A stretch of DNA of 64,000 bases from positions 1 to 64,000 of the forward strand of contig JAFGRT010000145.1 of the NCBI GenBank assembly GCA_016935015.1, in the 5' to 3' direction. Each line of letters opens with the position of its first letter. The stretch's first letter is position 1. This document shows, in pieces, positions 60,371 through 64,000 of the stretch. Both the position numbers and the translations under genes were made by a program. The notes beneath the pieces are model-generated. The model saw only the letters and a list, made by a program, of their open reading frames with translations. It ran no database searches and had not been told where the DNA came from. The DNA is from Acidobacteriota bacterium. GTDB lineage: Bacteria > Acidobacteriota > JAAYUB01.

Positions 60371-62836
60371 CTATTCCACCGCCGGCCGGACATACTTCTC
60401 CAGCCACTGCCAGGTCTCCCACAGCATGTGCATGATGGACTCCCGCGCCAGATACCCATGGCTTTCATGGGGCAGCATCACCAGCCGGGCGGTCCCGCCC
60501 AGTCCCTTGACGGCATCGTACAGCCGCTCGCTCTGCATGGGAAACGTGCCGGAGTTGTTGTCGGCCTCGCCGTGGATCAGCAGCAGCGGCTCGTTGATCT
60601 GGTGGGCATGCATAAAGGGGGACATGGCGAAATAGACATCCGGCGCCTCCCAGAAGTTCCGCTCCTCGGCCTGGAAACCGAAGGGCGTCAACGTCCGGTT
60701 GTAGGCGCCGCTGCGGGCGATGCCCGCCGCGAACAAGTCCGTGTGGGCCAGCAGGTTGGCCGTCATGAAGGCGCCATAGGAATGCCCACCCACGGCCATA
60801 TGTCCCTTGCGGGCCACACCGCGGCGTACCACCTCCTCCACGGCGGCGGCGGCGCCTTGTTGTAACTGCCGGATGAACGTGTCGTTGGGCTCCTCCTTCG
60901 CTTCACCGACAATGGGGATGGCCGGATCATCCAGGACGGCATAACCGGCCGCCACCCAGATGATGGGCGACCACCAGCCCACCCGGATGAAACGGTGGGG
61001 GGAGTCCGTCACCTGGCCGGCGGCGTCGGCGCTTTTGAATTCCTGGGGATAGGCCCACATCAGCAGGGGCAGCGGGCCCTCCACTGCCGGATCATAGCCG
61101 GGCGGCAGGTAGAGGGTGGCCGTGAGATTGACCCCGTCGGCCCGCTCATAATGGATCATCTCCTTTTGCACGTCCTTGAGCTGCGGCGTGGGATGGGGGA
61201 ACGCCGTAACCTGGGTCAAGCTCTCGCCTTTGAGATGGCGAAGAAAGAAGTTGGGCGGCTCCGTCACGGATTCTCGCTGGGTCAGCGCCACCAGTTTCTC
61301 CGGGTCAAGCAGGCGGACGACCTGCTCGTAGTAAGGGGCCTCGGAGCGCCAGAGGCGCCGGGTCTTCATGTCGGCCAGCGACAGGATGTCGAGGAACGGT
61401 CGGTCGCCTTCCGGGGAGGCGCCGGCGCCGCGCAGGAAAAGTGTCTGCCCTTCGTCGGTGGTGAGGAGTACCGCCTGCCCCGCCTCGTTGCGTCGCAGCA
61501 GGGGCGAACCGGGGTCGTTGTAGCGATCTTCCAGGGAGCGGTCGAACATGAGGGTCCGGTTCACATCATCGGCACCGGGTGCGAAGCGCCAGGAGCGGAT
61601 GCGGCGTGTTTTCCACCACCATTCGTTGACCAGGGCCAGGTCATCCCGGCCCCACAAAACCCCACCAAAACGCATTTCCAGGGCGAGGAGCTCACGGGAC
61701 TCTTCCGTGAACGGGGCGGTCAGCGCAAACATTTTGTCCCGAACCTTCGCCTCCGTCTTGGGGTCGCCCTGGTCCTGGGCCTCCACCCAATAGACCGTGG
61801 CCGGTGCATCCGCACGCCAGCTCACCGAGCGGGGTCCCGTCGGCACGGCGTCGAAGGCGATGGGCACGTACTCCGCCAGGGGCAGATCGGCGATGAGATG
61901 AACCACGCGGCCACTCCGGTCCCAGATCTCCGCGCGACGCGGAAAGCGGCTGAGCGGCACGGTGTACGAAAACGGCCGGTGGATGGTCTGAACCAGGATA
62001 TAGAGGCCGTCGGGCGAAGGGTCAAATCCGGCATAAATGGCCGGCTTGCCCAGCGCGGTGACCTCGCCCGTCAGGTTGACGGCGGCCAGCTGGGTGGTGG
62101 TGTAGATCTCGAACAGCGCCTCGTCATGGGGATTCTGCAGCAGATCCTGGTAGGTGCGCGCCGGCGCCTTGCGGCCGGTGGTTTCCTGAATGACCGGTCC
62201 TGCCGGGACCAGCGGCTCGGCCGGTATCTCCACCGGCTGGGCCGGCCGCAGCTTGCATATCAGGGTTTGGTTGTCGGAAACCCATTGAAACGGCGTACCG
62301 TAGGTACTGTTGAGGATGAACTCGCCCAACCGCCGGGCCCGGGCGGTGTCCATGGCGGCCAACCACAGGGTCAGTTCATCGTTTTGGAGTACGCTGAAGG
62401 CCAGGTGACGGGCGTCGGGCGACCAGTCCACGTGCTGGATGCGTGCGTCGTCGGGCAGGCCGGTGACCGGTTTTTCGTCACCGGTCCGGATGCTTTTCAG
62501 GGTGAGCCCCGAATAGAAGCCCCGCCGGCTGGCCGTGAAGGTCCGCGGATTGATCCGCAGGCCCGCCAGGCGCAACTCCGGCTGGGCCAGCTCATCGATG
62601 GGCATCAGATTGGGACGATCCATGATCAGCAGCCAGGTATGAGTGGGATCCACGTACACCGCCGGGGTGGGCGGGGCGTCGATGATGTCCACAATGGCCG
62701 GCGGCGGCGTCTGGTACGGAAGGGAGCCGGCCGACTGGGCGGGAACGTTTTGCGTCATACTTCCTCCCAGCACCGTCAACAGGATGACTGCACCGGTAAC
62801 GGCAATGGATGGACGATTATTCCATCTTGAAATCAT
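60371..62836 (-). CDS. Prolyl oligopeptidase (S9) family peptidase with beta-propeller N-terminus
   Basis: KGHMAVGGHSYGAFMTANLLAHTDLFAAGIARSGAYNR (GxSxG), LLLIHGEADNNSGTFPMQSERLYDAVKGLGGTARLVMLPHESHGY. Confidence 0.93.
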   Translation of the reverse strand: MISRWNNRPSIAVTGAVILLTVLGGSMTQNVPAQSAGSLPYQTPPPAIVDIIDAPPTPAVYVDPTHTWLLIMDRPNLMPIDELAQPELRLAGLRINPRTFTASRRGFYSGLTLKSIRTGDEKPVTGLPDDARIQHVDWSPDARHLAFSVLQNDELTLWLAAMDTARARRLGEFILNSTYGTPFQWVSDNQTLICKLRPAQPVEIPAEPLVPAGPVIQETTGRKAPARTYQDLLQNPHDEALFEIYTTTQLAAVNLTGEVTALGKPAIYAGFDPSPDGLYILVQTIHRPFSYTVPLSRFPRRAEIWDRSGRVVHLIADLPLAEYVPIAFDAVPTGPRSVSWRADAPATVYWVEAQDQGDPKTEAKVRDKMFALTAPFTEESRELLALEMRFGGVLWGRDDLALVNEWWWKTRRIRSWRFAPGADDVNRTLMFDRSLEDRYNDPGSPLLRRNEAGQAVLLTTDEGQTLFLRGAGASPEGDRPFLDILSLADMKTRRLWRSEAPYYEQVVRLLDPEKLVALTQRESVTEPPNFFLRHLKGESLTQVTAFPHPTPQLKDVQKEMIHYERADGVNLTATLYLPPGYDPAVEGPLPLLMWAYPQEFKSADAAGQVTDSPHRFIRVGWWSPIIWVAAGYAVLDDPAIPIVGEAKEEPNDTFIRQLQQGAAAAVEEVVRRGVARKGHMAVGGHSYGAFMTANLLAHTDLFAAGIARSGAYNRTLTPFGFQAEERNFWEAPDVYFAMSPFMHAHQINEPLLLIHGEADNNSGTFPMQSERLYDAVKGLGGTARLVMLPHESHGYLARESIMHMLWETWQWLEKYVRPAVE

Positions 62837-62982: not shown

Positions 62983-63207
62983 TCAGTCTTCGGTGGCCGG
63001 CGGGGTGGACGACGCTTGCCCCCCGGCGGAAGGAGTGGCGGATTTCTGACCGGAGGTGACGGCCCAGCCGATGACGGCACCGAACAATACACCCATGACC
63101 GGGTGCGCCGCCAGCCCTCAGGTGCTGCCGGTACAACTGGATGCCAGGTAGAGCCCGTAGCCACCGCCGGCCCCCAGCAGCAAACCCAGAATTCTCTTGA
63201 AGTACAT
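62983..63207 (-). CDS. Candidate selenoprotein: small membrane protein with in-frame TGA at codon 30
   Basis: MYFKRILGLLLGAGGGYGLYLASSCTGST[TGA]GLAAHPVMGVLFGAVIGWAVTSGQKSATPSAGGQASSTPPATED. TGA is complement of 63118-63120; reading continues into a second TM segment; hairpin downstream of TGA (see finding). Confidence 0.6.
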
Positions 63208-63496
63208 TTTCACCGGTTCTCTTCCTTTCCGTCACATCCATCATACCAGCCGACGGCCGGCAGAACAATTTTTTCTGATGATGAAAATCCGCGAAGTGAT
63301 TCCGATTCCGGCACGTCGCGGAAAAAAACTGAAACCTTCGGCGGGGTGATGGATTAGACACTCGGACAGGCCGTCGGAGAGGCAAAGTGTATTCAGCACA
63401 GAACGTTTTCTTGAAAATTATCATCAGATTGCATAGACTGCGAAAGGCGCGCTCCGGCCGCCCGTCTCGTATTCCAGATCCGTAACGGAGGGACTC

Positions 63497-64000
63497 ATGA
63501 ATTTGTCCAGTTGGCATATACCGCCAGTTCGGCGGACCGGCAGCCGGCGATCGATCCGGCCGGCCGTGATCGGGTTGCTGGTTATGCTGGGATTATCCAC
63601 CGCGGTGATGGCCCAGATCAGCCAGGGCGGCACCCCGTACAGCTTTCAGAAAAACCTGACCTCGCCCGTGGATACCATCACCCTGCCCCGGGTGGACACC
63701 CAGGCCTTGCTGGCCGAGGACGAGGTGGAGGCGACCCTGGGCCTTCCCTTCCGCTTCGGCTATCCCCACGAGGTGGACCTGGGCCTGGACAACGCCGGCA
63801 CCTGGGAGGAGCTGCCCGACGGCGGCCTGCTGTGGCGCCTGCGCCTGGTCTGCCCTGACGCCTACTCCATCAACCTGATTTTTTCGGAATACGATCTGCC
63901 GGCCGGCGCCGCGCTCTTCCTCTACGACGACGAAAATCGAACCCTGCTGGGATCGTTTACCCGCCGCAACAACAAGGCCCACGGCCAGTTCGCTACCGCC
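63497..64000 (+). CDS. Secreted protein with lysyl endopeptidase/trypsin-like propeptide (3' end outside window)
   Basis: MNLSSWHIPPVRRTGSRRSIRPAVIGLLVMLGLSTAVMAQISQGGTPYSFQKNLTSPVDTITLPRVDTQALLAEDE...LWRLRLVCPDAYSINLIFSEYDLPAGAALFLYDDENRTLLGSFTRRNNKAHGQFATA; open to window end. Confidence 0.75.
   Translation, partial: MNLSSWHIPPVRRTGSRRSIRPAVIGLLVMLGLSTAVMAQISQGGTPYSFQKNLTSPVDTITLPRVDTQALLAEDEVEATLGLPFRFGYPHEVDLGLDNAGTWEELPDGGLLWRLRLVCPDAYSINLIFSEYDLPAGAALFLYDDENRTLLGSFTRRNNKAHGQFATA

Follow-up and report, generated by a model that had tools for sequence, protein, structure and literature searches.

The window analysed here is a stretch of 64,000 nucleotides from an Acidobacteriota draft genome (contig JAFGRT010000145.1), whose minus strand carries a small gene that reads, from 63207 to 62983, MYFKRILGLLLGAGGGYGLYLASSCTGST-TGA-GLAAHPVMGVLFGAVIGWAVTSGQKSATPSAGGQASSTPPATED-TGA. 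The internal TGA (63120-63118) is preceded by 29 sense codons and followed by 44, and the second TGA serves as the stop. The sequence-only reading of this DNA had described the frame as open except for the TGA at codon 30, and the sequence confirms it. A GTG located two codons upstream of the ATG, and itself preceded at 5-6 nt by AGGAAGAG, may plausibly be used as the start instead. The gene stands by itself, flanked on one side by a divergent gene that begins at 63497 and on the other by a gene for a peptidase S9 (62836..60371). Other long frames overlap it, and the TGA-containing frame is the one for which homologues were found; it stands above chance because four genomes belonging to two genera keep both the frame and the TGA. 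The features of the locus are collected in Table 1.

Table 1. Coordinates of the features of the putative selenoprotein locus in the window.
Feature	Position	Strand	Remarks
Putative selenoprotein gene (Sec form of DUF6132, two predicted TM helices)	62983..63213	-	74 aa from ATG 63207; possible GTG start 63213
In-frame TGA, codon 30, very probably read as selenocysteine	63118..63120	-	TGA in same column in G001, G002, G003 and G064; Cys invariant in Cys-type homologues
Cys25 (TGT), likely resolving partner in C-x4-U motif	63133..63135	-	Invariant in alignment A2; Lys in G064
SECIS-like hairpin CACCC-GGTCAT-GGGTG	63090..63105	-	Loop begins 17 nt after TGA
Ordinary TGA stop of the gene	62983..62985	-	Sequence
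Shine-Dalgarno-like AGGAAGAG	63219..63226	-	Sequence

A protein search of genomes from the same family found the gene, as a single copy, in all three others (G001-G003), with E values of 7e-8 to 4e-6. These three genomes represent a genus different from that of the window genome, and their proteins share 33-41% identity with the window protein. Each copy contains one internal TGA, found in the same column of the alignment. The motif of these sister proteins is CAGST-U-GITGNP, and the core shared by the window protein and the sisters reads S-x-C-x-G-S-T-U-G-x-x-x-x-P. In addition, G064, a member of another order, encodes the form SQKIGST-U-ALMCNP, with the TGA in the same column and a Lys replacing the first Cys; it is the sole genome of its order in the set, and the search of that order returned G064 alone. 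Two Streptomyces loci that emerged from a wider contig search matched 28 residues of the first helix only and were judged to be chance matches, and additional TGA, TAG and TAA marks, seen in matches of the f23 family and elsewhere, turned out to be the normal stop codons of Cys-type genes.

Of 396 genomes of the phylum searched with a profile, 52 gave matches, and most of the real matches are short membrane proteins carrying the motif GC-x-[TS]-G-x-C-[PI]-[LI]-T-x-x-P. The DUF6132 motif given in the sequence-only reading was thus essentially right, and the alignment agrees with its placement of the TGA on the second Cys. This residue is invariant in the eight Cys-type homologues of alignment A2, and the column contains either Cys or TGA. 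The one Cys-type member tested scored 39.4 bits against the Pfam model of DUF6132 (PF19628). The sister proteins scored 28.3 and 23.6 bits when Cys was placed at the TGA, over the Pfam cut-off of 23.2, and 23.1 and 18.3 bits, under this cut-off, when X was placed there. The window protein scored 14.3 bits, again below the cut-off, and with X at the TGA it gave no DUF6132 match in Pfam. Because the sisters pass with Cys and miss with X, and the window protein scores lower still, the Sec-type genes are best described as a divergent branch of DUF6132, in which the placement of the window member relies on its orthologues. NCBIfam 20.0 offered no model for these proteins, its one match (LptG) being weak and irrelevant. 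The Sec-type proteins resemble the Pfam family in length, in their two helices (taken from a low-confidence model), in a loop that presents two Cys-class residues five apart in the alignment, and in the conserved glycines on both sides of this loop. They differ from it by the Sec (UGA) that would occupy the place of the invariant second Cys, by a Gly instead of the following Pro, by the lack of an adjoining rhodanese or thioredoxin gene and, for the window member, by the score under the cut-off.

Selenocysteine insertion in bacteria calls for a signal in the mRNA, and the sequence-only reading had pointed to the hairpin just behind the TGA. The place of this hairpin, its loop beginning with GG and its spacing of 17 nt hold, but the overall fold is not unusually stable: compared with shuffled sequences, the 60-nt fold of the window gene has no extra stability (z = -0.02). 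Among codon positions, 0.5% are followed at 15-20 nt by a loop of 4-8 nt that starts with GG and is closed by a 5-bp Watson-Crick stem, and 0.1% if the loop starts with GGT; this background comprises 16,006 codon positions in the 25 long ORFs of the window, and its criteria were set after the hairpin had been seen. A looser bSECIS-like definition was dropped, as 80% of codon positions satisfy it. The RNAs of the sisters fold differently from that of the window gene, into a long hairpin with imperfect pairing that lies within some 70 nt (z of -3.2 to -3.4). The best sign of a SECIS comes from the synonymous sites of the sister genus, which appear to be frozen after the TGA: the three sisters show 0 synonymous changes over 20.7 synonymous sites in the 24 codons that follow it, compared with a dS of 0.27-0.48 before the TGA and 0.06-0.33 in the tail. 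In E. coli, fdhF and fdnG carry a GGUCU loop that resembles the loop of the window gene and lies at roughly the same distance from the UGA. Some bacterial SECIS elements are known to depart from the consensus (PMC9312934).

The proteins required for Sec synthesis and insertion are encoded in the window genome, with matches of 372-428 bits (SelA 428, SelB 373, and two SelD of 386 and 384), and the search for this machinery fell short in one component, tRNA-Sec, which is missing from the draft assembly. One of the two SelD genes, on contig C122 (11663-12583), itself has a TGA at the catalytic Cys/Sec position (GAG-U-ACK), with a strong GG-loop hairpin behind it; this gene is located directly behind a gene for a cysteine-desulfurase-like aminotransferase class V. 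The second SelD has a Cys at the catalytic position (GLGCACK) and shares one open frame of 751 amino acids (C60:3178-5274) with an aminotransferase class V domain, probably a desulfurase-SelD fusion that coexists with the Sec-type SelD. Among the genomes compared, the SelB of the window genome is nearest to that of two genomes from its own order (37-38%; four others were compared), which speaks mildly against contamination. Regarding tRNA-Sec, no match in the window assembly exceeded the Rfam cut-off, the best (42.9 bits) being a tRNA-Leu, and neither an exact-pattern search of the assembly nor the flank of guaA revealed one. In the sister genomes G001 and G003, unlike the window genome, a tRNA-Sec of 79 bits with anticodon TCA lies just downstream of guaA (on C85 and C68, respectively). 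In G002, the three tRNA matches over the cut-off are two tRNA-Ser and a tRNA-Trp. Since this 90%-complete assembly apparently also lacks tRNA-Sec while its congeners carry it, the absence from the window genome is likely to be a loss in assembly.

The distribution of SelB, called by scores over NCBI's cut-off, offers support, not proof, for Sec decoding. A true SelB is present in all five TGA-type genomes (the window genome, G001-G003 and G064) and in 3 of the 41 Cys-type genomes (G145, G263 and G303), giving a Fisher's exact p of 4e-5, although the genomes share ancestry and do not count as independent samples. Two genomes of the same order (G044 and G068, family f2) have a true SelB and no detectable DUF6132 homologue.

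These data allow the possible readings of the TGA to be weighed. A Cys-type gene could have acquired the TGA by nonsense mutation or sequencing error and be a fresh pseudogene: the TGA is a single substitution away from the Cys codons TGC and TGT, and the window assembly is a draft of 237 contigs. However, the identical TGA is present in three other assemblies from another genus and also in one genome of another order, and, over the 24 codons that follow, the window gene and its sisters differ with a dN of 0.50 and a dS of about 1.5, which implies that purifying selection on the protein continues past the TGA. Mutation or error would not produce a conserved TGA column followed by selected sequence, and the conservation across independent assemblies in practice refutes this most improbable explanation. 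A genome-wide reassignment of TGA to Trp, Gly or Cys would give a single gene with a conserved in-frame TGA the same appearance, but its likelihood is close to negligible: the selenoprotein gene itself terminates at a TGA (62985-62983), SelA, SelB and SelD are encoded in the genome, and the homologues show Cys in the TGA column, not Trp or Gly.

A further possibility is that the UGA ends a 29-residue peptide with one helix, or is read through by a near-cognate tRNA, in a strain that lacks tRNA-Sec and hence inserts no Sec. The missing tRNA-Sec would fit this idea, and recoding is always partial. Nevertheless, the likely loss of this tRNA in assembly, the conservation as protein of the sequence past the TGA, and the presence of two proteins that would be useless without tRNA-Sec, the Sec-type SelD and the true SelB, make it quite improbable. 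Selenocysteine is thus very probably the product of the UGA at codon 30; the Sec machinery and the homologues with TGA or Cys support the preference of the sequence-only reading for Sec insertion over a nonsense mutation. As a whole, the locus is best explained as encoding a Sec form of DUF6132, an inner-membrane selenoprotein of 74-76 residues, to which we assign a probability of about 0.9 on the basis of the sequence comparisons.

According to the proposed mechanism, SelB would be guided by the hairpin just 3' of the UGA and insert Sec at codon 30. Hydropathy and a low-confidence structure model (pLDDT 60) predict helices at about residues 2-25 and 36-52. The short loop C-T-G-S-T-U would join them, with Sec30 inside the loop and Cys25 at its margin, and bring the two residues together at one membrane face, for which the positive-inside rule weakly favours the outer side. 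This pair may cycle between selenol/thiol and selenenylsulfide or persulfide states, and the protein could work as a membrane carrier of thiol or sulfane-sulfur redox equivalents, in which Sec would be the reactive residue. The form of G064, devoid of Cys25, suggests that Sec is the essential partner. Rhodaneses transfer sulfane sulfur, and thioredoxins reduce disulfides. A membrane thiol/persulfide role was deduced because Cys-type genes cluster with those of a thioredoxin, a YgaP-like membrane domain and a rhodanese, as in locus L053 of one family. Locus L046 combines a thioredoxin gene with those of an ArsR-type regulator (Pfam) and of a protein that by eye resembles low-molecular-weight arsenate reductase, and other Cys-type genes adjoin OsmC. 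The L053 and L046 clusters possibly form a sulfane-sulfur island. No conserved redox neighbours were found beside the Sec-type genes, so the functional argument is drawn from the Cys-type relatives, by analogy with which the redox/persulfide role can be put forward tentatively, at somewhat less than even odds.

Alternatively, Sec could be inserted and the C-x4-U loop could bind a metal or metalloid, as small membrane proteins related to copper, mercury or arsenic do. The regulator and reductase-like protein of L046 would suit such a function, and the published selenoprotein inventory includes putative mercuric transport proteins. However, the genes next to the Cys-type forms (thioredoxin, rhodanese, YgaP-like and OsmC) indicate sulfur chemistry, and no metal transporter was noticed next to the Sec forms; we consider metal binding a rather unlikely competitor of the redox carrier. 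Equally speculative is the extension of the redox carrier to the entire family, by which DUF6132 would be a general membrane relay of sulfane sulfur (or selenium), formed by two helices, acting within the membrane plane without a thioredoxin-type fold, and whose reactive residue became Sec in Sec-decoding lineages.

The thiol-redox selenoproteins of bacteria (CxxU and UxxC proteins, e.g. SelW-like, Trx and AhpD-like) are comparable in that Sec replaces a redox Cys with another Cys nearby, and in their SelB-type machinery and a hairpin right behind the UGA. They differ from the protein described here in its C-x4-U motif and two-helix membrane hairpin without a thioredoxin fold. Most of the listed membrane selenoproteins are multi-spanning transporters. 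YeeE/YedE (PF04143), MerT-like proteins (PF02411), the SO_0444 Cu/Zn efflux transporter and TsoB, all listed in PMC13188914, likewise combine a membrane location with Sec, and several are tied to sulfur or metal handling; judged by their identifiers, they are separate families. DUF6132 is not among the 119 prokaryotic selenoprotein families of this 2026 inventory (PMC13188914), and a search of the open-access literature found no paper linking DUF6132 with a selenoprotein, although a report elsewhere is possible. The Sec-type DUF6132 proteins therefore apparently constitute a selenoprotein family new to the lists, whose members are very small and embedded in the membrane. Because gene callers stop at the UGA, a stub of 29 codons such as the present one will probably escape notice. 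The exchange of Cys for Sec marks the second Cys of DUF6132 as the probable reactive residue, and in this way the function of the DUF6132 family becomes testable.
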